Source of the DNA: Fodinibius salinus
GTDB lineage: Bacteria > Bacteroidota > Rhodothermia > Balneolales > Balneolaceae
Length of the DNA: 64,000 nucleotides
NCBI RefSeq assembly: GCF_008124865.1
Contig: NZ_VNHY01000002.1
Span: forward strand, 558,001-622,000
Direction: 5' to 3'
The translations under genes and the position numbers were made by a program. Under the pieces are notes generated by a model, which did not search any database, was not told the DNA's origin, and saw only the letters and a program-made list of their open reading frames with translations. Shown piece after piece: positions 21,292-56,108 of the stretch. Within the stretch, counting starts at the first letter, position 1. The number at the start of each line of letters is the position of its first letter.

Positions 21292-21396
21292 AATACGAGA
21301 GGGGCAAAATTATCGAAGAGGAAACTTTCAAGGAACCTTTATGGCAGTTGATTTGGTTAACCTTGTCTTATCAATACTTAAGAAAGGCCAATAAAT

Positions 21397-21849: not shown

Positions 21850-21942
21850 CATACGAACCATGTGGGTTCTGAATATCTACAATCCTAATTGCTCTCTATA
21901 AAACCAGTGGCAATTAGTTCTAGCCGCTATATTTGCGTTTTA

Positions 21943-23413: not shown

Positions 23414-24511
23414 ATGTTAAAACAAACACCTTTTTATAATGTCCACGAGCAAGCCGGAGCTAAACTTGTTGATTTTGGTGGATTTGAAATGCCCGTACAG
23501 TACGATAGTATCCGCAAAGAACACAAGGCAGTTCGCGAAAGGGTAGGTATGTTTGACGTATCACATATGGGAGAATTTTATGTATCTGGCGATGAAGCAC
23601 TGGATTTGCTGCAGCATGTGACGATTAACGATGTGTCGAAGCTTGAAAATGGCAAGGCGCAATACAGTGTTATGTGTTACGAAGACGGCGGTATTGTGGA
23701 TGACCTGCTGGTGTATAAGTTGTTTGATGACGCCGGATATATGTTGGTAGTAAACGCTTCAAATATTGAAAAAGATTTAGAATGGATTGAAATTAATAAC
23801 AGTTTTGATGCGGAGGTGAATAACCAATCCGATGATACTTGTTTGCTGGCTGTACAGGGACCAAAGGCAATAGAGACGCTCCAAAAGCTGACGGAGACAG
23901 ATCTTAGCGGAATATCCTTTTATAGTTTTGAAATGGGCACATTGGCAGGCTTTGATAACGTGGTGCTTTCCGCCACGGGCTATACCGGCGAAAAAGGATT
24001 TGAGCTGTATTTTGATAAAAATGACACTGACCCCGAAGCTATCTGGGAAGCTATTATGGAAGCTGGGGACGAGTTTGATATCGAAGCCTGTGGGCTGGGT
24101 GCCCGCGATACGTTACGTCTTGAAAAAGGTTTTGCGCTTTATGGCAATGACATTACCCAAGATACACACCCGCTGGAGGCACGTATGGGCTGGCTTACAA
24201 GGCTGGATAAGGGAGACTTTATTGGTCGGGTTGCATTGCTGGAAGCCAAAGAAGAAGGACTCAAGCGTAAGCTTGTTGGTCTTACCATTGATGATAAGCG
24301 GTCTATCCCGCGCAAGGGGTATAAGATTTTTGATGCCAATGACAACGAAATTGGATTTGTCACCAGCGGTTCTCGGTCAATTACGTTAGGGAACAATATC
24401 GGTATGGGGTATGTAGCTATCGACCATGCAGATGAAGGCGACACTGTTTTTGTAGAAATCCGAAACAAAAAGGCCGAGGCCAAGGTAGTAAAACCACCAT
24501 TTGTGGAGTAA
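23414..24511 (+). CDS. gcvT: Aminomethyltransferase (glycine cleavage T protein)
   Basis: GcvT, which transfers the aminomethyl carbon from the lipoyl H protein to tetrahydrofolate and releases ammonia in glycine cleavage. The 365-residue protein starts with the family pattern [26 protein letters not shown] (quoted in part: [14 protein letters not shown]). It continues with DVSHMGEF near 49 and [22 protein letters not shown] near 73 (partial: [18 protein letters not shown]). [11 protein letters not shown] near 192 and the C-terminal barrel ending in KPPFVE are also present. H and P protein genes are not in the window. comB follows after 59 bases. Confidence 0.96.
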
Positions 24512-39468: not shown

Positions 39469-41601
39469 ATGCCAAAAAAAGTAACACAAAATTACCTCTC
39501 GTATTTCCTGACTATAGCAACGGGAGTGGTCTTGCTTTTTATTCCTCTTTTGGGTGATCTCCATATCGAGTCGGCGATGCTTGCTACAGTGATCGGTTGT
39601 TTCTGGGGTGGATTTCGAGCATGTCGCGGGAATCCGAATGCTGATTTTCGAGCCGCTCTTCGGATTATCGGCTATTTATTTCTGGCAGGATTACCTTTAT
39701 TAGTAAATGCTATACTTACAGAATGCTTGAGCATCCACGGTCTTGCATTCTGGTTGCTTTTTCCGCCAACCGGTGTGTATTTTGGATATGCTATTGGCCG
39801 CCTGTTACGGAGTTTTCAGCTTTCCTTTCGCCGCCTGCTGTTAACGACAATCCTTCTTGCCCTGGGTATTGGCATATTTTTGTATGAGTTTTTCCACTAT
39901 CCCCAAGTGTATTTTTTTAATCATGTGTGGGGCGTGTGGCCGGGACCCATTTACGATGAGACGGTAAAACTCACAAAACCAATGGTATTTTTTCGGGCAC
40001 TTACCATATCTTGGATACTTTTATTGTGGCATATTCCAGCTTTTAGCCAAAAGCGGTACGCGCAATGGATCGTTGGTTTGTCAGCAATAGCGTTACTATT
40101 TGGATATACCCAGCTTACCAAGCAGGGAGTGCTTACTCCTCGCTCATATATTCAGGAGCAGCTAGGCGGGCACAAAACGACCGAGCATTTTGAGCTATAT
40201 TACGATCAACGGCTATATAGCGAATACGAAATTAATAAGCTGGCTGCTGAGCATGAATTTTATTTGCAGCAAATTACCGATGCTCTGACCCTGCCGTCTC
40301 GGGGTAAGAGCAACAAAATTGAAAGCTACCTGTACGGACATCCCTGGCAAAAGAAAGAACTGGTGGGAGCTAAATTTACCAGCTATGTCCCCATTTGGCT
40401 GCAACAGGATCAGCTGCATATTGCCAAGCAGCAAACGAAAAGTAGCCTTAAGCATGAGCTGGTGCATGTACTGGCCAAGCGATTTGGCAACAGACTGTTT
40501 AATGGTAGCTGGAGTATTGGGCTGATTGAAGGACTAGCCGTTGCTATTGATGGTGGTTCCTCTTCCACTTCTACCATCGATCAGATTGTGGTATCAGAGC
40601 AGCCTTATCCGACAGCTAAAGAATTGCAGCATAGTTTTTCTCTGCTGGGGTTTTATGGCGGACGGTCGGGCGTCAACTATATTACCAGCGGTTCGTTTAT
40701 CCGTTATTTGATGAATGAGTACCCTATATCCTTGCTTAAAGAGGCGTACCGCACAGCAGATATTGCTGCTTCGTACGGTAAAGACTGGCAGGTACTGGCC
40801 AACGGTTGGCACCGGCACCTAGATTCAATATCCGTTGATTCTGCGGATCAACAAACGGCCAGTCGTATCTTTCGTATTCCTTCACTGTTTGAGCAGGCCT
40901 GTCCTCACGTGCTATCTAATTTTGCAGCACGCTGGGATGAGTACCGGTTTTTAATGGCCAGTCATGATACAACCCAGGCACTAGCAGCGTTGGATGATGC
41001 GCTGGCCGCCGCCGACAGTGTAGCGTCTGTGAAAATAGAATGGAGTTTTCGTCAATTGGTTGCCGGCAAATTCGACAAGGTAAACAGAGTGGCGGCTTTG
41101 CAGGATACGACGGTAGAGCAGCATTTGCTTTATGCGGATGCATTTGCCATGAACGGTGATATTGAAACGGCTCGTCAATATTTGCGAAAAGCACGACAGC
41201 TTTTTAATCCCAAACAGGACTCACTGCTTAAGCCGGGCATGCAGGTTCGGCAGGATGACTGGCAGTGGAATATTTACAGACAGCTGCGCTATCAGAATTA
41301 TTGGCCGGACTCTGTAATTTTTGCAAAAACAAATTACCACATAAAAATCCGTACCCTTAAAAAAGCAATTAAAGAAGAGCGCTGGGAATTAGTTGAGCAA
41401 TATGGAAGGCAGCTCCTGCAGGTAAATCCCCGAAAGCGGTATGTTGACGAGTATCTGCTGTTTATTCATGAGCTTGCACTTCAGGGAAACCACAAGTTGG
41501 CAGAGCAATGGCGGAGAGTAGTATCAAAATTATCATTACGCCGCCGACAAGCTGAGCAATTGCAGAATGAAAGAGGGTGGCTAAAATTTATGAGCAAGTA
41601 G
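39469..41601 (+). CDS. Large polytopic membrane protein with gluzincin-type zinc peptidase motif
   Basis: A 710-residue protein in three parts. Residues 1-220 contain about seven hydrophobic segments. An extracytoplasmic peptidase-MA-like domain follows, with HELVH at 329-333 and a downstream Glu354 in LIEGLAVAID, the HExxH...E arrangement of zinc metallopeptidases of the gluzincin type (spacing about 20 residues). Residues about 480-710 are helical, with TPR-like repeats (LYADAFAMNGDIETARQYLRKARQLF, quoted short: GDIETARQYLRKARQL). I know of no named protein with this layout. Substrate unknown; a role in processing envelope or surface proteins is conceivable because the surface-protein operon is the convergent neighbour, 21 bases away. 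Confidence 0.8.
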   Translation: MPKKVTQNYLSYFLTIATGVVLLFIPLLGDLHIESAMLATVIGCFWGGFRACRGNPNADFRAALRIIGYLFLAGLPLLVNAILTECLSIHGLAFWLLFPPTGVYFGYAIGRLLRSFQLSFRRLLLTTILLALGIGIFLYEFFHYPQVYFFNHVWGVWPGPIYDETVKLTKPMVFFRALTISWILLLWHIPAFSQKRYAQWIVGLSAIALLFGYTQLTKQGVLTPRSYIQEQLGGHKTTEHFELYYDQRLYSEYEINKLAAEHEFYLQQITDALTLPSRGKSNKIESYLYGHPWQKKELVGAKFTSYVPIWLQQDQLHIAKQQTKSSLKHELVHVLAKRFGNRLFNGSWSIGLIEGLAVAIDGGSSSTSTIDQIVVSEQPYPTAKELQHSFSLLGFYGGRSGVNYITSGSFIRYLMNEYPISLLKEAYRTADIAASYGKDWQVLANGWHRHLDSISVDSADQQTASRIFRIPSLFEQACPHVLSNFAARWDEYRFLMASHDTTQALAALDDALAAADSVASVKIEWSFRQLVAGKFDKVNRVAALQDTTVEQHLLYADAFAMNGDIETARQYLRKARQLFNPKQDSLLKPGMQVRQDDWQWNIYRQLRYQNYWPDSVIFAKTNYHIKIRTLKKAIKEERWELVEQYGRQLLQVNPRKRYVDEYLLFIHELALQGNHKLAEQWRRVVSKLSLRRRQAEQLQNERGWLKFMSK

Positions 41602-41622: not shown

Positions 41623-42027
41623 TCAGCTAAAAATGATCTGATTAATAGTGTCCCAAAATGTACTCTTGCTAATGGGCTTTTGGATGAATCCCTCTGCACC
41701 GGTGGCTTCCACTCTAGAGTTTACTTCAGTAGGACTGAGTGATGAAATGTACATAAAAGGAATATTTTGAATACCCGAATGGTTTTTTATCTCTTCAAAT
41801 AAGGTAAAACCATCTATTTCCGGCATTTCAATATCAGATATTATCAGATGGGGCTTCATTTCTGTCTGCTGCAGCTGTTCCAGCAAATGAAATCCATTGG
41901 TGAATGTTTTGACGGCATAACCCTTAGCAGTGAGCATCTTTTTTAAGATAATGTTGTGAAATTTACTGTCATCAATAACAAAAATATGACACTCATTTTC
42001 TGTAATAGAATTTATACTTTCGCTCAA
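41623..42027 (-). CDS. Single-domain response regulator (receiver only)
   Basis: A 134-residue CheY-like receiver with no output domain. The acidic pocket (Asp19, Asp20 in VIDDSK), phosphoacceptor Asp65 (IISDIEMPEIDG), Ser95 (YISS) and Lys117 (FIQKPIS) are all present, so phosphorylation is expected. The start is a TTG whose last bases overlap the stop of the preceding 1286-residue surface protein (TTGA), and no in-frame ATG precedes the domain, so translation is coupled. It ends the five-gene surface-protein operon. No histidine kinase gene lies in the window. Confidence 0.9.
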   Translation of the reverse strand: MSESINSITENECHIFVIDDSKFHNIILKKMLTAKGYAVKTFTNGFHLLEQLQQTEMKPHLIISDIEMPEIDGFTLFEEIKNHSGIQNIPFMYISSLSPTEVNSRVEATGAEGFIQKPISKSTFWDTINQIIFS

Positions 42028-45000
42028 TTTTGAATTTGCACTTTATAGATTATGGTTCCACTTTCGCCGGGTTGCAAGCTGCCGGAAAATGTCCACGTAA
42101 TGGTACCGGTATTTCCAACGCCCGGAGACGTTGTGTTACAACCGGTTAAGTTGTTGGGCAGTGAGCCAGGATTACAGTTAGAAGAGCTGTAGGTCGTGTA
42201 AGCAGGAACGTTATCAGTGACTTCAAGTGAGTTGATCGGTTGCGTTCCATTATTGCTATAGGTGATAGTATAGGTAATCAGCTCTCCCGGTAAAGCCTGG
42301 GATTTATCCACCGATTTGCTGAGTGAAAGTCCACTGTTGCTTTCGGTGACATTAATAACATCATTTCGCGATGCAGTCTGCTGGACGACCGGAGAGGTGT
42401 TCGCTAATGTAAAAGAAGCATTTAAGGTGAGAGTACCGGTGTCTCCGTTGCTTGCATTTTGTGGTACGACAACTTTCAAGAGCAGGCATTCGGTTTGACC
42501 CTTTGTTACTGAAAGGATATCTGAGTTTGTTAAGATAGGTTCACCGTTGTCAATTGTTTGATTGCAATCATTATCTTGATACAAGATTGGAGAAAAGTCG
42601 TTGCTCGACGGATTGTTGGTAGATTGAATCGAAAAGGTGACATCCCCATCCGTTTTAGCTGTAAATTTGTGTGGAAAAGTACCGCTGCTGCCGGTGGACA
42701 GATTTTTTTGTCCGTCGGTGTACAGCAGGCTTTTGTTTACATCAGAAAATAACAGCCCGGTATATATGGTACCTGTATTATTTGTAAAGCTAATTTCATC
42801 ATTTGGTCGGTCATAATTCCCTCCGGTAGTGCCTGCATTTCCCGCTACCGAAAGAAAGCCTGCTTTGTTGGTTTCTTTTATCTTGATTGTACTGCCGTCA
42901 GGCGCAGTTGAGGCAGGAAGAAACATTGTATATGATCCATCTCCGGCTGTGGTGGTTTGTTTGAGAACTGTTCCACTGTTGTCAGTGGCTTCGACAGTCA
43001 CACCGTCAATGCCCGTTTCTCCCCCATTTTGTAAGCCGTCATTGGCCGTTCCGCCACCGGTACCGTTATCATTAAAAACGATGCCCTGTACTTTCGAGCC
43101 TTCAAAATCACCAAACTGCTGTATGATGGGGTTGTTATTAACGGTGATCGGTTTGGTATTGGCCGTGGTTGATACGTAACCTGATGGGTCGGTGGCTGTT
43201 GGAGGACAGCTGCCAGGAGCAGGAGTACTTTCATTAGCAGCCTCAACTACTTTATAGTTGCCTGTCGGAATATTGCTAAATTCATAATTGCCATTGCCGT
43301 CAGTTTGTACACTTTGGCACGTTGTGTTATTGGTGTTGAGCAATACAATTGTTACGCCCGAGATACCGCTTTCACTTGATTCATTAGTCCCATTATGGTT
43401 GTTATCCGAAAAGACGGTACCGCTTACTTTAACGCCCGAGGTTACATTAATTTCAACATTCGATTGCTGATTACCAGTATTGGGATCAGTTTGGTTAAGC
43501 CCGTCAATTCGCGCAATATTGTTGATGGTGTTGCCCGCGGTACCTTGATTTACTGTAGCCGTTATAGTTAGTGTCTCAGAGTTACCGTTCGGAATATCTC
43601 CGATGTCCCATTCGCCGCTTGTTGGGTTATAGGTACCCTTTGTGGCGGATGCTGAACTATAGGTAATGCCGTTCGGCAGCGGATCTTTTACTAACACACT
43701 GGTAGCCTTTTCCGGACCGTAATTTTGGACATCAATAGTGTAGCTGATAGTTTCATTTTCATCAGGATTGGATTTGTCGACTGTTTTGGAAACGCCTACA
43801 TCAGCATTGTTGGGAACCGGTTGTGGGTTATTGGGAAAACTTTCCGGGACACAGGGGTTAAAATCAACAGTAAATTGACGCTCGGCGGCCGGACCCGACC
43901 CGGTATAGTTTACGACTCCTCCTCTTAGTTGAAATGAAGTAACATTTTTATACTCCAACGAAACCATTCCTTCAGGATAATCTAAAGGATCCGACCCGCT
44001 AAAATTGTCGTTATTTTGAGGTTCAAAAATGTCAAAAGGAGCATCAAAACCGGTATTTAATAAAGTGGTTGTCCCAAGAGTGTATGAAGCACTTGATGCA
44101 AATCCTACTAGTTCATGCCTGTTGCCACCATCGCCGTCAACATCAGTAGCCGATACTCTAAAGCGATCTATTGTTTTGGGGGTGCCTGTACCTGCATCAA
44201 AAAATTTAATTTCAAAATCGATATGCCCTTGCCCATAATTATTGGAAATAATGGGCTTAAACGCTGCTTCATTATTACCGGTAAACTGATCGGGATTTTC
44301 TAATGTTGCGTTATTAACGTCAGTAATAGTGATAGTAGCATATGTTCCCGTTAATACATTGTCATATCGATAAACGGCACCGACCTGTCCTGAACTTCCT
44401 GATATCAGAGAACCATTTTGGAATGTAAGGGTGGGTAATCCGTCACAGCTGCTTGGCGGGGGACCGCTGCCGCTGAACTGTACTGATATGGGAGCATCAT
44501 CACTATTATTAGCTGCATTTTCATCAGTTTGATCAATGGCTGACAGTGATGCAGTGTTGGTAATGGTATTGCCCTCTTGGCCAAATTGCACTTCGGCCTG
44601 GATAGTTAATGTGGCACTTGTTGAAGTAGGCAAACTTCCAATATCCCAATTACCGGACGTATTATTATAGGTTCCCTGGCTGGCAGTGGCTGATACAAAC
44701 GTTAACCCTTGGGGAAGGTTGTCTTCAATTTCAACGCCGCTGACCGGAATTTCTCCATCGTTTGCTGCAGTGATGGTATAGGTAATTGTTTCTTGTTCCT
44801 CTGGATTACCATTATTAACCGTTTTAGTAACGGCAACACCATTGTTTTGTACCTGCTGTTGCGATCCCAGGGTGTAAAAGTTTTCCGGGTTATTTTGGTT
44901 ATTATACTGTGTTGCTATCCAGTCTGCCGAGCGCGCTGTATTAGAGATGCGAACTTCATCAAGTCGGCCGTCAAAAGCAAGTGCGCCAGTACCAGAAAGT

Positions 45001-45884
45001 TTTAAAACACTATTATTGGATTGTATAGGTGGCGAATTCCCGTCAGTGGCATCCAATGAACTGTTAATATAAATGTTACGTCCATTGTTGTCTTTGATAA
45101 ATGTTAGGTATTGCCAACTACCTGTTGAAGAAGATGTGTTAGATTGGAAATAGCTTCCATTTAATATAAAACTGTAATTATTTCCATAATAATCAGCTAC
45201 AGAATACGATTCGTTGTATGCCCCTTTTGAAAGTAGCAATGGGAACCAGCCACCATTTGTATCTTCATTATAAACCCACATCGAGATAGTTATGGGGCCG
45301 CTAATATTCAGGGTGGGGGAGTTGGGAATTTCAATATTGCTGTTACCATCAAAGTCACGTGCAGTTCCTAGCTTACCGAGAATACTTGTAGTACCGTTAT
45401 TCAGTCCGTTATTGGCATTATTTGTAGCATCGGCCAGGTTATTTGCATTAAAGTGTTGAACAACTTTAAAATTGTTATCCCAAGTATTAGAAGTTGACGG
45501 ATCCGAAGTTACACTTGCATTCCCGTAAAGCATATAGATGGTCGTACTGCTGCTTAGATTTGGGATACGTACCCAGGATACAAGATTTCCATTGCTTGCA
45601 TTGTAGCTTTCTATCTGATGGTCTAAAACATTGTTGCCATCAGGATCCGTGGCAAAGATAATGTCATAGCCATTAGAATTTTGCACATTAGCCTGTAGGT
45701 TGGCATCGGTAATGTCGATCAACAGGGGAAAGTTCGTATGCGAACCCTGAACCTGTGAGCCATTTATTGTAATTTCTTTGACATACTGATAGTTGCCTTG
45801 GGCTCGTCCTTGTAGGGTAGCACCCAGGGTACATGCAACCAGCAAGATTCCAAAAATTTGATATGTCTTTTTCAGTACATTCAT
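42024..45884 (-). CDS. Secreted multidomain surface protein: DUF2341, LamG-like, DUF11 and SdrD-B domains
   Basis: A 1286-residue exported protein (signal peptide to about residue 28). Domains in order: DUF2341 (about 35-125: FPLLIDITDANLQAN, IYMLYGNASV), LamG/concanavalin-like (about 140-330), DUF11 (about 346-470), an unassigned beta region beginning SSCDGLPTLTF with a DVDGDGG motif (about 477-685), DUF11 (about 693-812), two SdrD-B/Cna-like domains (about 815-1030, e.g. VFSDNNHNG and GIVFNDNGTGGG), a beta region, and a last DUF11 (about 1185-1286) that ends on the repeat's own final strand. No anchor or sorting domain is seen. The ATG overlaps the stop of the OmpA/barrel gene (ATGA). DUF2341-LamG at the N-terminus suggests a ligand-binding end. 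Confidence 0.9.
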   Translation of the reverse strand: MNVLKKTYQIFGILLVACTLGATLQGRAQGNYQYVKEITINGSQVQGSHTNFPLLIDITDANLQANVQNSNGYDIIFATDPDGNNVLDHQIESYNASNGNLVSWVRIPNLSSSTTIYMLYGNASVTSDPSTSNTWDNNFKVVQHFNANNLADATNNANNGLNNGTTSILGKLGTARDFDGNSNIEIPNSPTLNISGPITISMWVYNEDTNGGWFPLLLSKGAYNESYSVADYYGNNYSFILNGSYFQSNTSSSTGSWQYLTFIKDNNGRNIYINSSLDATDGNSPPIQSNNSVLKLSGTGALAFDGRLDEVRISNTARSADWIATQYNNQNNPENFYTLGSQQQVQNNGVAVTKTVNNGNPEEQETITYTITAANDGEIPVSGVEIEDNLPQGLTFVSATASQGTYNNTSGNWDIGSLPTSTSATLTIQAEVQFGQEGNTITNTASLSAIDQTDENAANNSDDAPISVQFSGSGPPPSSCDGLPTLTFQNGSLISGSSGQVGAVYRYDNVLTGTYATITITDVNNATLENPDQFTGNNEAAFKPIISNNYGQGHIDFEIKFFDAGTGTPKTIDRFRVSATDVDGDGGNRHELVGFASSASYTLGTTTLLNTGFDAPFDIFEPQNNDNFSGSDPLDYPEGMVSLEYKNVTSFQLRGGVVNYTGSGPAAERQFTVDFNPCVPESFPNNPQPVPNNADVGVSKTVDKSNPDENETISYTIDVQNYGPEKATSVLVKDPLPNGITYSSASATKGTYNPTSGEWDIGDIPNGNSETLTITATVNQGTAGNTINNIARIDGLNQTDPNTGNQQSNVEINVTSGVKVSGTVFSDNNHNGTNESSESGISGVTIVLLNTNNTTCQSVQTDGNGNYEFSNIPTGNYKVVEAANESTPAPGSCPPTATDPSGYVSTTANTKPITVNNNPIIQQFGDFEGSKVQGIVFNDNGTGGGTANDGLQNGGETGIDGVTVEATDNSGTVLKQTTTAGDGSYTMFLPASTAPDGSTIKIKETNKAGFLSVAGNAGTTGGNYDRPNDEISFTNNTGTIYTGLLFSDVNKSLLYTDGQKNLSTGSSGTFPHKFTAKTDGDVTFSIQSTNNPSSNDFSPILYQDNDCNQTIDNGEPILTNSDILSVTKGQTECLLLKVVVPQNASNGDTGTLTLNASFTLANTSPVVQQTASRNDVINVTESNSGLSLSKSVDKSQALPGELITYTITYSNNGTQPINSLEVTDNVPAYTTYSSSNCNPGSLPNNLTGCNTTSPGVGNTGTITWTFSGSLQPGESGTIIYKVQIQN

Positions 45885-48800
45885 TGATTAGACGATGATA
45901 TTAACAAATGATCCTCGCGTTTGCTTAACAGTTTAAAGAGCTTAGACAAGATTGGTTTTACGGACTGATCCTGTTCTAATCCGATATTATGATCTTGGCT
46001 GATGGGAGAGAGTCGAGATTCTCCGCTGTATTTTACAACGACCATTTCTTCGCTTTGTCTATTGGTACCACCCGTGTCAAGTTGTATGTCAACCCGATTC
46101 ATATCTGTGCCAGCCTGTTGCAAAAATGATTTTAGCTGTTGCTTGTGCTGTTCCGTTTGATTGTTATTCATCATAAAAGTAACGGATGTTTCGGGATAGT
46201 ACGATAATGCCAGATGAATACGCTGCAGCAGATATTTAGATGCGGCACTCAATGTGTCATCCTTGAAATGAATACGGTCGGGCACGGCGGTAATTTCAGT
46301 ATTAAATAAGTAATCTAATTTAGCAATGTCAGTGCCAGTATCACTGCTTATTTGTAAGTCGTTAAGCTGAGGAATAAATCGAACATTGGCATTAGGGATT
46401 TCAAAATTCAGTTCCACACGTCGGTTCATTGCCCGATCTATCATATCACTTTCTTTGCTTGTCTCCGATTGCCATTCGCTAAGCCCTTCGAACTCCACAG
46501 AGTTTTTATTTACGCCCAATGATACCAGATATTCTTGTACCGACTCAGCCCGGCGTTTGGAAAGCCCCAGATTATACTGATATGATGCCCGGCTGTCGGT
46601 ATGACCAATGATCTCGAGTGTAAACTCTTCTTGTTTATTCAAAAAGTTTGCAACCAGCTGCAGCATTTCTTTGGATGCATTACTGAGCGTATCAGCATCA
46701 GAGGCAAAGTGGATGTCTTTGGGTAAGGTTGTCAGTGGTTTATGTTTGTTAACTTTAAACTCCGGAGCTTCAAATTCTATGGGTTGGATGCCAGGCATTT
46801 CAACTTCAGGTTCTGGCAGTTGCATTACCTCTTGTACCTGTTCGGGGCTATTACATTTGTTGCAGGTGTCATATAGTTTTTTCTGGCGCTTACTGGCATC
46901 GGGAGTTAAGCCGCGGAAAAGGCGCTCATCAAACTTGTAGCTGAATCCTAGGTAAACGCCTTTGCGGGTATAATTAGAAGCGGCCAGATCACGGTCGTTA
47001 AATCCGAATACGTTGAATCCTACGGCCAGCCGCAGGTTGCGTTTTACGACATACCCTACTTCAAAGCCGGCTCCGTAATCTTTACTGCCGAATCCGGCAT
47101 CTGTCATAAAGCTGGCATTAACACCGCCGTCGAGCTTACGCGTAATGTCGTACATGGTGCGGCCGCTCATCAGCATGGTTAAGCTGTTAGAGTCAAACTG
47201 TGCGGATGATTCGCTTACCTTTTTGGCAGAAAAACGAGCGGAATGTGTCCAGTCGGCATTGGGGTTGAAGTTTACATTGGTAGAAAATATGTGGACCAGT
47301 CGGTTAAAGTCGCCGCCGTATTGCCCGTTTTGCTCATATTTTAGCTCGTAGCGTCCGAGTCCGTCCCAGCGGTTTTGGTCTGCTTGTCGGTAAGCAAAAC
47401 CAAACCGTAGCCGCTGCTGAATGCGATTGGCCGTGCCGGCATTAGATGATGTTTGTAAGTTAAAGATATTTTTACCGAGGAACGTCCAATTGGGACTAAT
47501 TTTCCGTCCATATCCGAGGGTGTTTAAATAGCTGTTGGCGTTATTGCTAAAACGTGCCTCGGCGCGAGCAGTAGCTTTCCAAAGAGGGTTGGTGGTATAA
47601 TCAACAGCAGTAGAAATAGAAGTACCTTCGTTGCCGGCATTTCCAGAGAGGCTATATATGCGCTCCAGACTTGCAGTAATACCTAAGCCTTCGCGAACTT
47701 CGAAGCGATTTCGGAGTCCGATAGCTGCCTGTGCACTACGTCCGTCAAAGGTATCGTTAACACGGTATTCACTATATACTCGTCCATTTTGCATGTAGCT
47801 GGCATCAAGGCCAACAACCGTATTTTGGCGACGTTGGCTACCGTCCAGATTGTACTGTCCCAAAGCACTGGAGACAAATTCGTGCCGGGCATAAATTTTG
47901 CCGCGATTTTTAAAGCTGTAGTTTCCGCCCATTGCAATAAGCCGGCGGTCCCACTCCGTTACATCCTGCTCATATTCACCAAATACTGTAGCTCCATCCA
48001 CTTTGGGAACCCCCACCGTTAATTTACTGCGGATGTTTTTGTTGGTTATATCCTGGCCCTGGGGTTGGTTTTGGTCGGAGTAGCGTACGCCCAGCTCGCC
48101 GCGGATATCGGGCGTAAATTGTCGCTGAACATTGACTAAGCCGCCAGTGGTGTTGGTATTAAGAGTGTCGTTACTGCTGTAAAGAAGCTCTGTTTTTAGA
48201 TTTGTTGAGTTTGTAAGCTCTATAGATCCTCGTGCGCCTACCTCTGTACGTGCTTGCCCAAGCTGTGAGGAACGGTTCACAAAGTCCTCATTTGTCTGGC
48301 CGGCAAAAAGGCGTCCATCTATTTTGTTGCTTCGATGCTGTAGCTCGAGGCGGCCGCCGCGCCCATCCCCATCTTGCTCAGTGGTACTTTCAGCTATTTC
48401 GCCAATAAGGCGGGTATTTTCTCCGAATTCAACTGTTGAATTGACGCTTTTGAGTCGGTAGTTGTTTTCGGGATTACGATCTTCAACAAACGATCCGCCC
48501 ATTGTAAAAGAATCAGTAATATTAAACTGACCGTCAGCTCCGCCAATCCAATAATCCTTGCCTCCGTCTTGAACTTCATAAGTCACGCGGATATAAATGG
48601 GATTGAGTTCTTCATCCGCACTGCGCACCGGAGCGTTAAATATAATATTACCTGTAAATGGCTCGATCACATAATCCCGAAAGCGAGTCAGCTTTTTACG
48701 ATCAATAACTACCGACGGCTGATTGCGATCGCGTGTTATAAGTTCGACTCGTTCGCTGTTCACCAAAATATTATCGCTCTGCAGCTCATAGGGACCTGAA

Positions 48801-51800
48801 ATACCGCGTCCGCGAAATTCTTCAATACGCTGCAGTGAAGATGCTTGACTTCCAAATACATTGATCTTGCCCCAGTCTTTTTCATAGTGAACTTTAAGAC
48901 CGGTCTGAGTTCGGTTGTATTCGCCAAGACTTTTAGCGGGATCACGTTTTTGCGTTTCAAAATCACCATAGAGTGCGTATGTCTTTTTCCGCTCAACCCG
49001 AACATAAAGCCGACTCGTGGATTGTGCATCATATCCCTTTACGGAAGACTCTCCATAGACCGGATAAAATTCGTCCGGCTGAATGTCTCGGAACAGCTCA
49101 TCGTCATCTTTTTCAGAATCAAAGGCAGCCGTCAGTAGCATATTTCCCTTAATTTTACCTTTCAGGAAGAAAGCTGCCCGGGCATCGGCTGTAGCATTAC
49201 CGGTTTTATAGGAGAGTGATTTCAGCTCACGTTCAAAACCGTCAGCGCTGTGGGCGGGAACAATACTGGCGCCGTCATTCAGGCGAATACTCCCTTCAAT
49301 AATACCAGCTGCAATAAGGGGGCGCAGGTCGGGCAAGAAGCTAACAGTAGTTGTTTCTTCAAGTGCGCCTATAGCCACCCGTACTTTTACGTCTTGTGGT
49401 GCCGTGGGAGACTGAAGCTTAAGTCGCTGGCTACCATTTTCAATATAGGTTTGGGTTCCCGGTTCCGTTGGATTCCGATCCTTAACCTTCCATTGGCCGG
49501 CCGAAACATCCAGGGTAACAGGAACACGAGAGCTTACCGGGATGCCCGTTTTATCAAGCAGTTGAACCTGTACGATTGCTGCAGAAGTACCATCGGCAGA
49601 CACATCATTGACGGGAACATCCAGGTCAATTTGTTTAACCTTGCCAGGGGCAAAGAGGGTTATTTCTTTCTTTCCTCTTGGATTTCCAAAGGGATCGGTT
49701 TCGGTGAGTGTAAGCGTATTTTTGCCGGGTGAAAGCTTAACCCCAATATACTCCTGAGCCTGCAGGTTAGTCTGAGAAAGGGAGCTTTTTTTACTGATCC
49801 GATCGTTACGCAGCGTATCTCCATTTACAGCAAGAGATAAGGAAGCTCCCATTTTGCTTTTTACCCATATTCGGCGCTGTGCGGTTCGCAGCGTATCACC
49901 ATTTTGAAGGCCAATAAAACCGAGCTCTGCCTCTTCTTGGATCATAGCCTCTTCGAGCGTAAGCTGTTTTTTTACTGTTGAATCAGCAGCAGTGGTATCG
50001 CTTTTAATATTTGTTTTAGGCGTTGTGGACTCATCAGAGTTTTTAAGCTCTGGAGTTTTAGTATTGCCGACAACGCCACTGGCTTTGGCTCGTTTCCTAT
50101 TGCTTCTGTTGCGATTGTCTTCAACGCGAATCTTTTTACTAACGGATGAACCAATTTCGCTGTTGGCGGACGAGGAATATTTTTTCTGTCGTTGCTTTAT
50201 TCGCTTGTGTGTCTGTTCATCACAGTCGCAAACCGAAAAGTCAGCACGGTGCATTTGGCCTTTCTTTAGATCTACAAAGCGGCTTGAAGGATCACCGGCA
50301 TGACGATTATCCAAAACCCCCAGCTTACTGCCTTCAGGCAATGAGTAATTATCAAGCTTGAGAATATGTTTGTTCGGATTTATACCGTAGAAGGTATATT
50401 GTCCGTTGCTGTCAGTAACTACAAATGAACCATTTTCGAGATATAGTCGCACACCCGGAACGCCAAGCTCACCGGGATCTTGCACACCGTTCTCATTACA
50501 GTCGGCAAATACTTTACCGATAATGTAGCCTTTGTCCGTAAACACGCCACCGCGTACATCAATAGTATGCTGAGCTTGGTTACTTTGGATTTGAATACTC
50601 CGATCACTAACAGCAACGGCCGTATTCTTACCGTCGCCTTTCATAGCACCGGTTCCTAACAATGCGCGATAGCTGAGCGTTACCGATCCATTGGCTGGGA
50701 TATCACCAATATTAAAAGTCAGTGAAGGTCCTTGATCTCCATCAGGGTCTGCAATGGGTGATCCGTCACGGAGAGTGGTCCCTTTTTCATAGCGAAATCC
50801 AAAGGGAAGCATATCTTCCACGCGTACATCCCTGACAACGGATGATGCATTATTGGCCACGGTAATTTCATAATTAACGAAGTCGCCTATCTCTGCATTC
50901 TCGGTTGAGGCTGTTTTTTCGATAAAGAGCGTGCCGTCGGTTGACGGATCGAGCGGGGTATCAAAGGTAATAGCTCCCGGTTGTGAAAAAACAAACTCTT
51001 TACCGAAAGAAGTTTCTTCCCGGACGGTTTTATCAGATGGTAGTTCAGAAGCAGACAGTTGTGAAGGAAACTGATATCCGGCCGGCGGTGAAATTTCAAT
51101 ACGATAGGTGCTGGACTTTACATAAGGGAACCTGAACTGTCCGTTTTCGGAAGTCGTTTGGGTGCTGTTAATTTCATTATTACCGGTTTTGTTAAATACA
51201 TCAGCCGGTGCGCCGGGGTTGCCGCCGTTGCCGTTTCCGGTAACATCAATAAGAGTAACCTCAGCACCGGATACCGGTTCACCTGTCTGGCTGTTAAAAA
51301 CAACACCGTGTGGATCAACAACAATGTTAGCAGTTGTACTTTTTTGGTTGTTGCACTGTGGCATGGTGGCCGTAATTACATCGTTGCTGAGTGTTTCGAA
51401 AATACCATTATCCTGATTGACTGGGTTGTTGGAAGCATCACGGGTAGGTACGTTGGGAATGATGCGAAAATAACCGCTATTGTTGCTTGTTTCTATAGCG
51501 TCAAATGTTTCGGTGTCCGTAGTTTTTTTGGAGGTCAGCGTAATTTCAGACGTATCTTGTGTTGCAAAATTAGCGTTACAACCAGCAGCGCTTGCTTGCA
51601 GATGCAGATTATCACCTAGCTGTGTAGCATAGCTTGTATCAGAATACGAATTATCAATGTAGTAGTTCAGCTTGGCCTGTTTTTGAGGCAGGGAAGTTTG
51701 TACGGTGTTAGTTTGAGCAGAGTTATTTTTATTATTGCTGTTGATGGGATCGTTGTAGTTAAGTTGAGCAGTGTTTTCTAACACTCCGGCAGCATTATCA

Positions 51801-52747
51801 TTGACAGAAACATCGAATTGAATATCTAATTGTTCGCCGGGCTGTAAAGCATCAAAGGCAATAGCAAACTCGTCTACCTTTGAGAGATCTGTCGGTCGCT
51901 GGGTAGTATAAGTAAATTCCGGTTCCCCGATAAGGTGATACAACGGCTGTCCGCCATCGGCATCAACTATTTGTTGAAAAGTAGAGTTAGCCGGTATCTG
52001 ATCCCGAACTACAACTTTATTTTGAGAATTACCATCAACAGAAATTAGTAGTTTTTTAGCAACCTGGTCGCCATTGTTGCCGCCAGTAATACGATAGGTC
52101 AAAATTTTTCCCGGTTCTGGGTTTTGCTGAATAGCTTGCTTTTGAATGCTAATAGTTGGTCCCTGTAAGACCTGTATCGTGTTGGTGGTTTGTGACAGAA
52201 CCTGATTTTGTTGGGTTTGGGCCTGTATAATGATTTTACCCATATCACCGGCTTTTGCAGAATTGTTTACTATTGTTGAAACCTTAAAACTAACAGTATC
52301 GGAGGGATTAATTGTTACTGTAGAGCTGGATACAGGGGTTTGTGGGGCTGCAGACGAAGCTGCTTTAGGCTGAGGTTGATTTGTAGATTGGGGTTTTATT
52401 GATAGATTGGCAAAGTCAAAGTCATCATTGTTACCGTTGCTGACTGTCACGGTAATGGTAGAGGCAGTGTTACCTGTGTTGGAAAGGGTGTGGGTAAAAG
52501 TGCGTAATTGTCCTCTGCGTTCAACCACATTATGGTCAGGCCCAATTACGACACTTTCTTTTTTGTTGACAATGGTTGTTAGCTCATTAGAACTAACACG
52601 TACAGTATCTGTATTCCCCGGAATAGTGAAATAGCCGGATGCTTTATTTTTAATGTGCGTATTCGGGGCGGGGGACTGTTGTGCCACAGCCGTAGAAGCA
52701 GCCAAAGCCACTACCATAAATATGATATATGGGAATAGTTTACGCAC
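45881..52747 (-). CDS. Giant outer-membrane protein: DUF11/SdrD-B stalk, beta-barrel and OmpA domain
   Basis: A 2288-residue protein. After a signal peptide (1-22) come DUF11-like domains (about 60-350 and 609-735), a Cna-B/SpaA-like insert (about 482-580), an SdrD-B domain (about 739-830, VFADCNENGVQD), a basic and Ser-rich linker (about 846-960) and Ig-like strands (about 1050-1170). A long run of amphipathic strands (about 1200-1946) reads as an outer-membrane barrel. An OmpA/Pal-type peptidoglycan-binding domain follows (about 2010-2120; IIGHTDSRASYQYNLGLSKRRA with the Asp and Arg contacts; NRRVEL), and then a degenerate second copy. The start codon is GTG. It looks like the membrane- and wall-anchored base of a surface assembly. 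Upstream lies an intercistronic hairpin. Confidence 0.9.
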   Translation of the reverse strand: MRKLFPYIIFMVVALAASTAVAQQSPAPNTHIKNKASGYFTIPGNTDTVRVSSNELTTIVNKKESVVIGPDHNVVERRGQLRTFTHTLSNTGNTASTITVTVSNGNNDDFDFANLSIKPQSTNQPQPKAASSAAPQTPVSSSTVTINPSDTVSFKVSTIVNNSAKAGDMGKIIIQAQTQQNQVLSQTTNTIQVLQGPTISIQKQAIQQNPEPGKILTYRITGGNNGDQVAKKLLISVDGNSQNKVVVRDQIPANSTFQQIVDADGGQPLYHLIGEPEFTYTTQRPTDLSKVDEFAIAFDALQPGEQLDIQFDVSVNDNAAGVLENTAQLNYNDPINSNNKNNSAQTNTVQTSLPQKQAKLNYYIDNSYSDTSYATQLGDNLHLQASAAGCNANFATQDTSEITLTSKKTTDTETFDAIETSNNSGYFRIIPNVPTRDASNNPVNQDNGIFETLSNDVITATMPQCNNQKSTTANIVVDPHGVVFNSQTGEPVSGAEVTLIDVTGNGNGGNPGAPADVFNKTGNNEINSTQTTSENGQFRFPYVKSSTYRIEISPPAGYQFPSQLSASELPSDKTVREETSFGKEFVFSQPGAITFDTPLDPSTDGTLFIEKTASTENAEIGDFVNYEITVANNASSVVRDVRVEDMLPFGFRYEKGTTLRDGSPIADPDGDQGPSLTFNIGDIPANGSVTLSYRALLGTGAMKGDGKNTAVAVSDRSIQIQSNQAQHTIDVRGGVFTDKGYIIGKVFADCNENGVQDPGELGVPGVRLYLENGSFVVTDSNGQYTFYGINPNKHILKLDNYSLPEGSKLGVLDNRHAGDPSSRFVDLKKGQMHRADFSVCDCDEQTHKRIKQRQKKYSSSANSEIGSSVSKKIRVEDNRNRSNRKRAKASGVVGNTKTPELKNSDESTTPKTNIKSDTTAADSTVKKQLTLEEAMIQEEAELGFIGLQNGDTLRTAQRRIWVKSKMGASLSLAVNGDTLRNDRISKKSSLSQTNLQAQEYIGVKLSPGKNTLTLTETDPFGNPRGKKEITLFAPGKVKQIDLDVPVNDVSADGTSAAIVQVQLLDKTGIPVSSRVPVTLDVSAGQWKVKDRNPTEPGTQTYIENGSQRLKLQSPTAPQDVKVRVAIGALEETTTVSFLPDLRPLIAAGIIEGSIRLNDGASIVPAHSADGFERELKSLSYKTGNATADARAAFFLKGKIKGNMLLTAAFDSEKDDDELFRDIQPDEFYPVYGESSVKGYDAQSTSRLYVRVERKKTYALYGDFETQKRDPAKSLGEYNRTQTGLKVHYEKDWGKINVFGSQASSLQRIEEFRGRGISGPYELQSDNILVNSERVELITRDRNQPSVVIDRKKLTRFRDYVIEPFTGNIIFNAPVRSADEELNPIYIRVTYEVQDGGKDYWIGGADGQFNITDSFTMGGSFVEDRNPENNYRLKSVNSTVEFGENTRLIGEIAESTTEQDGDGRGGRLELQHRSNKIDGRLFAGQTNEDFVNRSSQLGQARTEVGARGSIELTNSTNLKTELLYSSNDTLNTNTTGGLVNVQRQFTPDIRGELGVRYSDQNQPQGQDITNKNIRSKLTVGVPKVDGATVFGEYEQDVTEWDRRLIAMGGNYSFKNRGKIYARHEFVSSALGQYNLDGSQRRQNTVVGLDASYMQNGRVYSEYRVNDTFDGRSAQAAIGLRNRFEVREGLGITASLERIYSLSGNAGNEGTSISTAVDYTTNPLWKATARAEARFSNNANSYLNTLGYGRKISPNWTFLGKNIFNLQTSSNAGTANRIQQRLRFGFAYRQADQNRWDGLGRYELKYEQNGQYGGDFNRLVHIFSTNVNFNPNADWTHSARFSAKKVSESSAQFDSNSLTMLMSGRTMYDITRKLDGGVNASFMTDAGFGSKDYGAGFEVGYVVKRNLRLAVGFNVFGFNDRDLAASNYTRKGVYLGFSYKFDERLFRGLTPDASKRQKKLYDTCNKCNSPEQVQEVMQLPEPEVEMPGIQPIEFEAPEFKVNKHKPLTTLPKDIHFASDADTLSNASKEMLQLVANFLNKQEEFTLEIIGHTDSRASYQYNLGLSKRRAESVQEYLVSLGVNKNSVEFEGLSEWQSETSKESDMIDRAMNRRVELNFEIPNANVRFIPQLNDLQISSDTGTDIAKLDYLFNTEITAVPDRIHFKDDTLSAASKYLLQRIHLALSYYPETSVTFMMNNNQTEQHKQQLKSFLQQAGTDMNRVDIQLDTGGTNRQSEEMVVVKYSGESRLSPISQDHNIGLEQDQSVKPILSKLFKLLSKREDHLLISSSNQ

Positions 52748-52763
52748 TAAATGTGATTGAACT

Positions 52764-52806
52764 TAAGTTGCTGAAAAGAAGTGAGGAGGCTTCACCCTCC
52801 TCACTA
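52764..52806 (-). terminator. Intercistronic hairpin (attenuator-like) inside the surface-protein operon
   Basis: GTGAGGAGG (52781-52789) and CCTCCTCAC (52796-52804) form a perfect nine-base-pair GC-rich stem with a six-base loop, 16 bases after the stop of the 882-residue gene. On the minus strand it is followed by CTTCTTTTC, a moderate T-rich stretch. It probably lowers transcription of the 2288-residue gene relative to the gene upstream. Confidence 0.65.
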
Positions 52807-52819
52807 CGGAACAAGATTT

Positions 52820-55468
52820 TTAGCTGTCTATTTGTACAGCAAATTCGATAGTAAACGATTCTCCGGGCGCAAGACTGCCAACGCTTACCTCAATTGGCCC
52901 AGTATTTCCATCACCGGGTTCGTTATCGACAGATGGTGATACGCTACCACTGCTAGCTGATACTGTTCCATCTTGGGTAGTATAGCTGGGAATGTTATCG
53001 GTTACATTAACAGTGTTTACCGGTGCAGAACCTTGGTTGGTAACCACAATCTGGTATTCAATTACTTCACCGGGATCGGCATTTAAGTTTGCTGTGCCGT
53101 ATGGGTTACCGGATCCTTGAATACGCTGTGATTTATTGATAGCAAGATCACCGGCCTGTATAGTGGTGACATCATTGACAGAAACATTCAGTGTTCCGGT
53201 TCCTGTGCCGCCAACCGATTGACCTGAACCGTCATCTGAAGTACTAAGCGTCGTAGTGTTGGATGTACCATCGGCTACGTTTGCACCAGGCTGAACCTGT
53301 ACAATCAGCTGTATCTGGTCTCCATTTTGCAGGGCTCCTACACCACTTGGCAGAACTGCCGCACCGTTGCTGGCAGTTGTAACTTGTGGGTCGCCACTGT
53401 TGATAGTGCCACTACCATCGGCATCGTAAAATACCTTTGTAGGGAAACCGCTTGTCTCAGAGTTTGACAGATCCAGCTGTAGTGTTGAGTTCGTTCCATC
53501 ATTTTCTACAACATTACCAGTGTTGGTAAGTGTATGAGTGTATGTAATGGAACCACCTGCGCTTACAGTACCGGTTTGGTCACTAACGAGTGTTAGGCTT
53601 CGCACGGCATTTACATCAACCGCGTCGTGTTTAACATCAGATGCGCCTGAAGATGATTGTGCCTGGAAGTAGATGCTTTGCGGAGCACTGTAGTCAGCAC
53701 CAGCAGGTACTGTTACAACAGCTGTAACTTCCATGTTGCTACCCGATGCAATAGATCCGGTACTGGTAATGGGATTTCCGCCAGAATCTTGGAATTCTAC
53801 CGACCATCCGGCAGGTAGCGTGATAGAACCGAAAGTATTATCGGTACTGGCAGCAAGATTGTAAGTATCAGCTACTGAACTGGTATTGTTAATAAACAGT
53901 GTAAAGCTTGTTGTAGTACCAGGGTTCGTAGTGTTGGTTGTAACAGGACTATTTTCACCGGTCGGGTTAATGCCTTCGCCGGGAGCACTTCCATTTACTG
54001 CCTGATTGTTCGTTACATCAACCGTGTTTGCAGTAATGTCTGTTATTTGATCGGTTACTTGTACCGACGTTGAAGGATCGTTCACAGAAGTAGCCGTCTT
54101 GGTAAGGTTGTAGGGTCCCGCTCCTGAAGCCCCAGATGGGAGCTGCACGTGTACAATTACCTGAACTTCACTTCCCGGGCTTACCGGACCGGTATCAGGG
54201 GTGGAATCGCCATTGGTATCACCCAGTAGTCCGGCTTTGTTTCCGCTGCCGTCAGACGCATACAGTTGAAATGACGTTCCGGAAGGATAATTCGCCGTAT
54301 TTGATAACACAATGTTATACGTATCTGCAGAACTGCCGTTATTCTTAAAAGTGTTCACAAACTCAACGGCTGAACCTTGCGCAACCGGTCCTTTTGATAC
54401 CGTAGAAGTTCCAGCGTCAGTTACGGAGTAATCTTCATTAACGGTGAAGTTAGCTGGAGCAGTGGTTTGTGATGTGGACAAGTCATCATGGTTCAATTCT
54501 CCAGTATTACTGATTGTTTGTCCTTCAGTACCGGTAGCAACCTGTACATCAAAAGTTATGCTGCCGCTTTGTCCGGGGCTAAAGGTACCAACGTCAACAG
54601 TAATTAAACCGTCGCCGCCATTGCCCGAGCCATCATAAGTAAAGCTGTCGCCGTCATTGCCATCAGTAACTCCGGAAGAATTTACCTGCGCAGAACCAGA
54701 AACGTAGTCAAAGCCGGCAGGCAGAGGATCACTGATCGTTAGGTTTGTCGCATCAGAAGTACCAGTATTGTTATAGTTTAACGTTACTGTAACTTGATTT
54801 CCGACATCACCGCTATTTGTATCCAGCGATTTGTTAAGCGTTACTACAGCATTTTCAGATACCGTTGCTGTATTTTGTACAGTAGTACTCACATTGCCAT
54901 CGAACTGGCTTGTTGCTGTAACGTCAACCGTTTCTGACTGTCCATCTGTAGCACCAGTGGGCACATCTGCTCTAACAACAACCGTATAAGTATTGCCTGC
55001 TGCTATACTGATCGTAGATGTGATTGGTGAATTGAGGTCGTCAGCTGAGCCATCCTGGTTGGCATCTTCAAATATCTGAATATTTGTGAAACTAAAATTA
55101 TTCGAAGATGCAATAGTGGAAAGATCAAAGGTATCTGATCCATTACCATTATTTGTTATGGTATGTTGGAATACAGCGGTTCCACCGGGGCTTACCGTTT
55201 GGGTAATGCCTGATGAAACAGTAACAGCCGCTACTTGCTGTACCGTTGTTTCCACACTGTTAGAGGTAACCGTTTGTGTATTACCGTTGTTATCTACATA
55301 CGTAGCAGAAGCTTGGTTCCCAATGGTTGTACCGGCTGCGGGATCACCACTTTGAGCCATAGACACGCTAGGTGTCAAGCTCATGGCAATTCCCACCACC
55401 ATACAAACCGCGAAAAAACCAACCATTTTACTACGCAACTTTTGAGCTGAATAAAGTTGAGTATTCAT
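52820..55468 (-). CDS. Secreted tandem DUF11-repeat protein
   Basis: An 882-residue exported protein (signal peptide to about 39, ending SMAQ) made almost wholly of DUF11/NEW3-like beta-sandwich repeats. Examples are TVSSGITQTVSPGGTAVFQHTITNNGNGSDTF (given in part: GGTAVFQHTITNNGNG), VTLNKSLDTNSGDVGNQV and LAINKSQRIQGSGNPYG as repeat starts, and PGQSGSITFDVQVATG and PGESFTIEFAVQIDS as repeat ends. About six repeats fill the protein and the last ends exactly at the C-terminus. Very few Cys and Lys, many Thr, Ser, Asn, Gly. No membrane anchor, barrel or sorting signal is visible, so it would have to be held by the other operon products. Confidence 0.88.
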   Translation of the reverse strand: MNTQLYSAQKLRSKMVGFFAVCMVVGIAMSLTPSVSMAQSGDPAAGTTIGNQASATYVDNNGNTQTVTSNSVETTVQQVAAVTVSSGITQTVSPGGTAVFQHTITNNGNGSDTFDLSTIASSNNFSFTNIQIFEDANQDGSADDLNSPITSTISIAAGNTYTVVVRADVPTGATDGQSETVDVTATSQFDGNVSTTVQNTATVSENAVVTLNKSLDTNSGDVGNQVTVTLNYNNTGTSDATNLTISDPLPAGFDYVSGSAQVNSSGVTDGNDGDSFTYDGSGNGGDGLITVDVGTFSPGQSGSITFDVQVATGTEGQTISNTGELNHDDLSTSQTTAPANFTVNEDYSVTDAGTSTVSKGPVAQGSAVEFVNTFKNNGSSADTYNIVLSNTANYPSGTSFQLYASDGSGNKAGLLGDTNGDSTPDTGPVSPGSEVQVIVHVQLPSGASGAGPYNLTKTATSVNDPSTSVQVTDQITDITANTVDVTNNQAVNGSAPGEGINPTGENSPVTTNTTNPGTTTSFTLFINNTSSVADTYNLAASTDNTFGSITLPAGWSVEFQDSGGNPITSTGSIASGSNMEVTAVVTVPAGADYSAPQSIYFQAQSSSGASDVKHDAVDVNAVRSLTLVSDQTGTVSAGGSITYTHTLTNTGNVVENDGTNSTLQLDLSNSETSGFPTKVFYDADGSGTINSGDPQVTTASNGAAVLPSGVGALQNGDQIQLIVQVQPGANVADGTSNTTTLSTSDDGSGQSVGGTGTGTLNVSVNDVTTIQAGDLAINKSQRIQGSGNPYGTANLNADPGEVIEYQIVVTNQGSAPVNTVNVTDNIPSYTTQDGTVSASSGSVSPSVDNEPGDGNTGPIEVSVGSLAPGESFTIEFAVQIDS

Positions 55469-55598
55469 ATAGTTATTTTGTATTAGTGATTGTTATTTAT
55501 TGAATTCTGAGATAGGGCCTTCTAAACGCACTCCTAAATGCTGAAACTGAAAGCCGCTAAACCTTAAAGAGTCGTGCTTGTTATAGTTGTGATTTATA

Positions 55599-56108
55599 TT
55601 AGTTTATATCGTTTACTTGTACCCGTGCACGTAATGTCACTGATCCCTGAGCCTCCAGAGATTCAACGGCCCATCGTAGTCGTCGATATTCACTGGCAGG
55701 AACCTCCTGCTCTACTACTTCGCCATTTTTCTGTGTTACTTCCCTGGTTATGGGTAGTTTTTGAAAGTTATTACCAGTTGAAGAAAGGCTTGCCGCATTT
55801 AATGCAGGTTCGGCAGTATCACTAAGATATTGCACGCCTGCAGGAATGGGCAGGGTAGGTACCAAGTTTGAAATACTATTTTCTGTGTTATTCGTATAGG
55901 TCAGCCGATATTCAATAGTATCGCCGGGCTGTATTTCGGATACTTCAACAGCCGTTTCGTTACCGGCACCATCTGTTGAAATTTTATATGTTTTTAATTC
56001 TGAAGTCAGATCTTCGTTGCCCTGGGCTTGTGTTACAAGTACTTGGGCAAAAAGAAAAAGAAACAGAACAAAGCTAGTTCTGATATTCATAATCAAGTTG
56101 TATTTCAT
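55599..56108 (-). CDS. Small secreted single DUF11-like protein, first gene of the surface operon
   Basis: A 169-residue exported protein: signal peptide (about 1-28, ending VTQAQG; a second Met at residue 7 is an alternative start) followed by one DUF11-like domain (EIQPGDTIEYRLTYTNNTENSISNLVPTLPIPAGVQYL, quoted short: GDTIEYRLTYTNNTENSI) and a final strand GSVTLRARVQVNDIN at the C-terminus. It is the size expected for an adaptor, chaperone-like or capping subunit that presents one copy of the fold used by the larger proteins. It opens the operon; 130 bases separate it from the 882-residue gene. Confidence 0.82.
   Translation of the reverse strand: MKYNLIMNIRTSFVLFLFLFAQVLVTQAQGNEDLTSELKTYKISTDGAGNETAVEVSEIQPGDTIEYRLTYTNNTENSISNLVPTLPIPAGVQYLSDTAEPALNAASLSSTGNNFQKLPITREVTQKNGEVVEQEVPASEYRRLRWAVESLEAQGSVTLRARVQVNDIN

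Follow-up and report, generated by a model that had tools for sequence, protein, structure and literature searches.

A five-gene operon with divided DUF11 domains

We analyzed a 64,000-nucleotide window of the Fodinibius salinus genome that carries, on its minus strand, an operon of five open reading frames (ORFs) encoding proteins of 169, 882, 2288, 1286 and 134 aa. Three of these proteins stop inside a DUF11 domain, and two begin with a segment resembling the part that is missing. Taken as a whole, the operon is best explained by a surface fibre whose domains are split between subunits and whose junctions are probably sealed by an isopeptide bond, a reading that we hold with good confidence. 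Below, a C-terminal DUF11 that would lack its last strands is called an acceptor, and an N-terminal segment after the signal peptide that would supply them a donor.

The first gene (P0005, 55599–56108; all coordinates refer to the minus strand) encodes a small protein with a signal peptide and an acceptor-like DUF11. It is followed by the gene for the putative shaft (P0004, 52820–55468), which comprises an N-terminal donor segment, immunoglobulin-like (Ig-like) domains and a C-terminal acceptor DUF11, and by that for the putative base (P0003, 45881–52747, GTG start), with a donor segment, DUF11, SdrD_B, a predicted giant barrel and an OmpA domain (residues 2014–2098, 46454–46708, Pfam). The putative tip (P0002, 42024–45884) combines DUF2341, LamG (Pfam Laminin_G_3), DUF11 and SdrD_B with a C-terminal acceptor DUF11. 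The last gene (P0001, 41623–42027) starts at a TTG that overlaps the stop of P0002 and encodes a receiver-only response regulator: PF00072 spans residues 15–127 of 134 with no other Pfam domain, as in a CheY-like receiver without an output domain. Four-base overlaps join P0003 to P0002 (45881–45884) and P0002 to P0001 (42024–42027). A preliminary description of this DNA had listed five same-strand genes of these sizes with two such overlaps, together with their DUF11, SdrD-B, OmpA, DUF2341, LamG and receiver domains; the ORF coordinates and the Pfam matches agree with it on both counts. All 9 DUF11 matches of the host genome (E up to 0.1) fall inside this operon.

Six of these matches are internal and extend to positions 100–113 of the 114-position profile. 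In P0002, P0004 and P0005, the C-terminal DUF11 domain covers positions 2–87, 12–88 and 8–89, respectively, and is then cut off by a stop codon. The P0004 acceptor comprises residues 773–882 (52823–53152), including Lys779 and Asp824, and the P0002 acceptor residues 1185–1286 (42027–42332), including Lys1190 and Asp1224. Across eight related operons, the C-termini of 8 shafts, 8 tips and 7 small proteins, 23 in all, lie no more than about 4 residues from a single alignment column. In 58 related genomes, a DUF11 domain interrupted by a stop occurs only in these operons, and other DUF11 proteins show no such stop.

The same end point recurs in a wider set of loci. When the shaft alignment was run against one genome per species, 300 candidate stretches emerged, 278 of them relatives, and the best 80 loci were kept; the wider loci were found with two patterns taken from the shaft, and gene classes within them were assigned by our own score thresholds, below which the small-type genes of L130 and L133 fell. 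Of the shaft ORFs that have a stop in the 80 loci, 86/87 terminate at −1 to +4 residues relative to the end of the model, and all tips do so at −2 to +1 (30/30). Because shafts and tips end alike, frameshifts or mis-called stops at the C-termini are unlikely. No ORF of these loci ends in a complete DUF11, which we defined as one whose match extends to at least model position 120 and is followed by no more than 30 residues.

The two kinds of end were placed on a common scale with a DUF11 profile of 132 positions, built from 140 intact internal domains only. On this model, shaft acceptors end at 94–97 (86/87 matched) and tip acceptors at 93–97 (30/30); all 71 small proteins match, with 62 ending at 95–102, many with a short tail. 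The subunits carry an incomplete Ig-like domain by either measure, with acceptors stopping at 93–97 of 132 positions here and at 87–89 of 114 in Pfam. Past the signal peptide, the first segment of P0004 and P0003, of which AGTTIGNQASATYVDNNGNTQTVTSNSVETTV is an example, resembles the missing DUF11 end (P0004 residues 42–80, 55229–55345, including Asn51; P0003 residues 25–63, 52559–52675, including Asn34). Taking 36 residues wherever a donor profile matched, we obtained 144 donor segments, from 85 of 85 shafts and 59 of 73 bases. On the intact-domain model 124 of the 144 score at least 5 bits, and every one of these starts at 95–104; after shuffling, 162/2880 segments reach 5 bits, with scattered starts. 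Since acceptors end at 93–97 and donors start at 95–104, the division lies near position 97–100. Bases carry a donor only, shafts carry both parts, and tips and small proteins an acceptor only. From this sequence evidence we consider it very likely that the two parts complement one another.

The operon would then encode a self-assembling surface fibre of DUF11 proteins, each incomplete at one end. With a base that is donor-only and a tip that is acceptor-only, the base donor would pair with the C-terminus of a shaft, shaft would pair with shaft, and the last shaft with the tip. The resulting order would be base-shaft-(shaft)n-tip, and in the host LamG would lie outermost. The DUF11 shaft proposed in the preliminary description is supported, but the split inside DUF11 had been missed; as the proteins are divided within this domain, the shaft probably consists of polymerised subunits and not of a single stalk.

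G007 and G024, two relatives that lack the operon, encode DUF11 repeats in one chain. In the former, a single 3739-residue frame (L157, contig C11, 634–15563) holds 21 DUF11 matches with OmpA near its end, and in the latter a 3270-residue frame (L158, contig C11, 744–14758) holds 12 DUF11 matches; each adjoins a separate barrel-type protein of 1236 or 1439 residues. These long proteins would be a one-chain counterpart of the proposed split fibre. In addition, the Thiothrix genome of L113 (G247) encodes further proteins ending in a truncated DUF11 (C24, 102808–104610, and C41, 207893–208156; profile 1–85 to 1–88, then stop), so split DUF11 pairs may exist beyond this operon type.

Isopeptide residues at the division

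DUF11 has been renamed CLIPPER, and in its crystal structure, 9IFR, an isopeptide bond links a Lys and an Asn, assisted by an Asp (PMC12617251). When an internal DUF11 of P0002 is aligned to 9IFR, the Lys, Asp and Asn pair up. In the shaft, the corresponding residues are divided: Lys779 and Asp824 lie on the acceptor and Asn51 on the donor. Counted across acceptor and donor, all three occur in 76 of 78 shafts, an alignment made up of 77 of the 82 eligible shaft ORFs and the window's own shaft. Five second-copy shafts (in L113, L152, L154, L155 and L156) were left out, and L131, whose shaft ORF ends early, was excluded both from this alignment and from the residue counts. Lys779 and Lys213 are the only Lys columns conserved in >80% of these sequences. 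A first alignment had given Lys in 77/86 shafts (7 gaps, 2 other residues) and Asp in 84/86. In tips, MAFFT places Lys in 29 and Asp in 30 of 30; with hmmalign, 17 tips have Lys, 12 a gap and 1 Arg.

The two exceptional shafts, L104 from a Verrucomicrobiaceae metagenome-assembled genome (MAG) and L141 from a beta-proteobacterial MAG, have each lost both the Lys and the Asp; the chance that two losses of each residue would coincide is 1 in 3003. Joint retention or loss is likewise the rule in the 140 internal domains, where all three residues are present in 130, none in 5 and a mixture in 5. In L141 the base lacks the donor Asn (by eye), the tip retains Lys and Asp, and the shaft retains its Asn. 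This is the pattern predicted from the chain order base-shaft-tip.

DUF11 is known to form a Lys-Asn bond with the help of an Asp. With the acceptor contributing Lys and Asp here and the donor Asn, an isopeptide bond would probably form autocatalytically between the two proteins and seal each junction without a sortase. On these residue patterns we judge covalent sealing to be probable, with somewhat less assurance than the complementation itself.

Several observations weigh against the bond. The alignment to 9IFR comes from a weak match (E 0.2, ranked second), and the Lys-to-Asp spacing here is one more than in the numbering of PMC12617251. The L104 shaft has lost its Lys and Asp, yet the base kept its Asn. 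Conversely, the base donors of L095 and L111, and by eye those of L122 and L141, lack the Asn, although the shafts of L095, L111 and L122 retain Lys and Asp. Finally, conservation of the shaft donor Asn is partly a product of selection and not independent, because one of the two search patterns used to find the 80 loci contains it; acceptors, tips and bases were not selected by that pattern.

These exceptions would suit complementation without a covalent bond, in which the donor strand is simply inserted and the Lys, Asp and Asn persist because they form hydrogen bonds or through shared descent. Complementarity needs no bond, the two shafts without Lys and Asp are still split, and some base donors have no Asn. 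Against this stand the presence of Lys779 and Asp824 in 76/78 shafts and their joint loss in the others, the joint loss of the three residues in internal domains, and the bond seen in the DUF11 crystal (PMC12617251). We regard insertion alone as rather improbable and prefer the sealed fibre.

Distribution and the accompanying proteins

A full-length relative of the 2288-residue base occurs in 8 of the 58 related genomes, the host's own included, and G007, G024 and G048 give partial matches only. The eight genomes keep the gene order small protein, 882-aa DUF11 protein, OmpA protein and large DUF11 protein, with no small gene detected in G027. Among 198 genomes of the phylum, the shaft is found in 14, all of the host's family (f1). 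The genes flanking the operon are not the same in G000, in G013 and in the remaining five f1 operons, with RecO and HtrA among the neighbours by eye, which suggests that the operon moves as a unit.

The 80 loci, many from MAGs, extend the system to Pseudomonadota (among them Polaromonas, Nevskia, Thiothrix, Acinetobacter), Desulfuromonadales, Verrucomicrobia, Eisenbacteria, Armatimonadetes, Acidobacteriaceae and Thermodesulfovibrionales as well as Balneolaceae. The order small-shaft-base is present in 63/80, many of the others being cut by contig ends, and this recurrence in other genera and phyla argues that the operon is not a chance arrangement. The OmpA domain is often encoded separately after a shorter base (20 such ORFs). 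In the Acinetobacter loci L154, L155 and L156, the usual small-shaft-base genes have two additional shaft-like genes and one tip gene upstream of them, which suggests that two kinds of fibre coexist. The proposal of one conserved surface system with a barrel/OmpA base, a DUF11 shaft and a large further protein is borne out by this recurring order. A LamG tip, also proposed, would suit P0002 of the host but is not general, as none of seven large proteins outside Balneolota carries LamG or DUF2341; these contain DUF11 and, in some cases, SpaA_3, SpaA_4 or SdrD_B.

The barrel of P0003, which the preliminary description had named, has no Pfam match but appears in an AlphaFold2 model of residues 1055–1960 as a very large beta-barrel (residues 1145–1940, 46928–49315), with a mean predicted local distance difference test score (pLDDT) of 80.3 and a predicted template modelling score (pTM) of 0.69. 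We count 32 strands from fragment residue 329 on and about 8 before it, so that the predicted barrel would have roughly 36–40 strands if all belong to one barrel, an unusually large number for one polypeptide. A short segment between its early strands is reminiscent of the plug of ushers. In a structural comparison of the base core with VIA-align, the FimD usher heads the folds listed (Z 15.3, 336 residues, root-mean-square deviation 6.7), with VDAC at Z 14.0; Foldseek places BtuB first, with low TM-scores, and PapC 46th. A sequence search of the Protein Data Bank (PDB) with the base core matched only OmpT porins (E 0.007). As far as the predicted model goes, these comparisons point to a large outer-membrane barrel but not specifically to an usher. 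The base would presumably be oriented to hold the fibre at the outer membrane. In the shaft, residues 207–343 match the pilins EbpB (Z 14.1) and BcpA (Z 14.0); a PDB sequence search with the shaft profile returned nothing at E 0.1.

The small protein P0005 ends early in an acceptor-like DUF11 that has no Asp at the bond position, and none of the 71 small proteins compared has the aligned Asp. Loss of the Lys is less clear, with Lys in 10/71 in the chosen column and in 32/71 three columns on. Because the incomplete fold is kept and the Asp is not, the small protein may hold donors reversibly before assembly; as a donor shield it is a tentative candidate, and one we would not favour strongly.

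The receiver gene has a narrower distribution. It follows the large gene in seven f1 genomes (G000, G013, G016, G020, G027, G028 and G034), and in eight further f1 operons from the 198-genome search it lies directly 3′ of the large gene on the same strand (8/8), which makes 15 of the 15 f1 operons examined. It is absent from the operon of G035, which belongs to another family. Were the gene order not conserved in relatives and the receiver normally found elsewhere, the preliminary description had reasoned, a single system would be doubtful; within the host's family it keeps its place, and beyond it the association is not general. Across the 80 wider loci receivers turn up sporadically and in no consistent position, though many of these loci break off within the large gene or before the sequence that follows the tip. 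The surface genes have a much broader distribution than their association with the receiver.

Eight genomes of the same genus (G002 to G009) lack the operon and carry a similar stand-alone receiver. The receiver tree is poorly resolved: operon receivers do not form one group, the G000 and G013 sequences are placed among the stand-alone ones, and clustering of the operon receivers is weak (3 changes, compared with 5.2 in shuffles, 20/500 of which were as low). No kinase was found among ten neighbours of the stand-alone receivers at six loci. The receiver, regular only in f1, would probably link the system to a two-component signal and may tie its expression or use to that signal. Three neighbouring features deserve mention. 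Just upstream of the small gene of G035, in divergent orientation, lies a gene for a 1401-residue protein with a receiver-like match (L056/L057, C45, joined positions 19449–23654), apparently a hybrid sensor kinase. Outside Balneolota, a Thiothrix MAG encodes a 120-residue receiver right after the shaft gene (L153, 5273–5635). In the window itself, the receiver gene adjoins that of a 710-residue protein (39469–41601) with one weak TPR match and no clear Pfam family.

These data bear on the preliminary model as it was written, a fixed, regulated adhesin with a barrel/OmpA base, a DUF11 shaft, a LamG tip and a controlling receiver. Its domains and gene order are confirmed, and so is its receiver in 15/15 family operons. 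It leaves the split domains unexplained, however, and is hard to reconcile with a G035 operon without the receiver, seven tips outside Balneolota without LamG, and operon receivers that are not one clade. We consider it improbable in that form.

Remaining alternatives and relation to known systems

Some results also count against the split-domain fibre more broadly. In 6/80 loci the order is base-ompA-shaft, with no small gene recognised. The donor profile missed 14 of 73 bases, several of which show a donor by eye or a mis-called start and some of which show neither. A mutual-information test across 78 sequences revealed no excess coupling between donor and acceptor columns, and no natural acceptor-donor fusion was found among the 80 loci or the 14 shaft-bearing genomes of the 198. 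AlphaFold2 modelled the shaft from 78 sequences with a mean pLDDT of 87.8 and a pTM of 0.46 (block means of 86–94 for residues 41–80 and 87–97 for residues 771–882); as a single chain output without coordinates, this model cannot show docking.

It might be, then, that no complementation takes place: the short last domain would fold on its own as a secretion or anchoring signal, and the N-terminal segment would cap the first domain. The end point common to all three kinds of protein, the null coupling test and the confident AlphaFold2 prediction of both ends without a second chain would all suit this. The donors, however, match exactly those profile positions that are absent from the acceptors, the base has a donor without an acceptor and the tip an acceptor without a donor, and the single-chain DUF11 proteins of relatives have no stop inside DUF11. 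We find such a signal quite unlikely. In self-closure, the donor of a shaft would fill in the C-terminal domain of the same chain, which leaves base-shaft and shaft-tip as the sole contacts between proteins. This is very unlikely: both parts do lie on one chain with high confidence in the single-chain model, but the several Ig-like domains between them should hold the ends apart, and the donor-only base and acceptor-only tip require contacts between proteins.

If the split-domain fibre is right, a widespread system known only by its DUF11 names is a fibre with an assembly logic of its own, apart from sortase and from the known usher/chaperone families. It would account for proteins that end within a domain, assign a function to a gene cluster conserved in several phyla, and offer ready-made natural tag/catcher pairs. 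The fullest version, a natural tag/catcher polymer found in several phyla, joined covalently without sortase, anchored by an usher-like barrel with OmpA, and with a dead half-domain shielding the donors, seems to us evenly balanced between true and false. Searches of the open-access literature, covering part of the DUF11 papers, few subscription papers and no bioRxiv preprints, revealed no report of a DUF11 domain split between proteins.

By description, the closest mechanism is that of an archaeal thread, whose secreted subunits are connected by an N-terminal donor strand and, it has been proposed, by an isopeptide bond between subunits, no sortase being known (PMC9715654). In Saci_0406 of Sulfolobus acidocaldarius, the proposed bond connects the N-terminal amine of Asp24 in subunit n+2 to Asn57 in subunit n (PMC9715654). 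The operon differs in that one DUF11 Lys-Asp-Asn set is divided between neighbours and in having a separate base and tip and a predicted outer-membrane barrel. Chaperone-usher pili, in which incomplete Ig-like domains are completed by the next subunit (PMC9715654), as in FimA/FimD/FimC, share the incomplete domain and an outer-membrane barrel at the base, here a predicted one, and FimD tops the VIA-align list. Unlike in these pili, the base here carries its own donor and an OmpA domain, other barrels score nearly as well as FimD, and no usher or PapD-type chaperone family matches any of the five operon proteins in Pfam.

With SpyTag/SpyCatcher and other engineered tag/catcher pairs, the system would share an isopeptide domain in two parts whose bond re-forms on mixing. 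Those pairs were engineered from CnaB-type domains, whereas the split here is natural, lies in the CnaA-like DUF11 and would be repeated along the proposed fibre. Gram-positive sortase pili are likewise built of isopeptide-type Ig-like pilins, as the EbpB and BcpA matches recall, and some tips carry SpaA_3 or SpaA_4; the scheme proposed here needs no sortase. A sortase pilin sorting signal consists of a motif, a membrane anchor and a basic tail, and none is seen at the C-termini of these proteins, which end inside DUF11. DUF11 domains have also been named in a spore-fibre anchor protein (PMC11952670), and in single-chain CLIPPER fibrillar adhesins they form the stalk (PMC12617251, PMC9210967). 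The operon shares the domain family and the stalk role with these adhesins, whose domains are complete in one chain. What is new here, as read from the sequences, is that the proteins are cut inside a DUF11 domain and its parts lie on neighbouring proteins.

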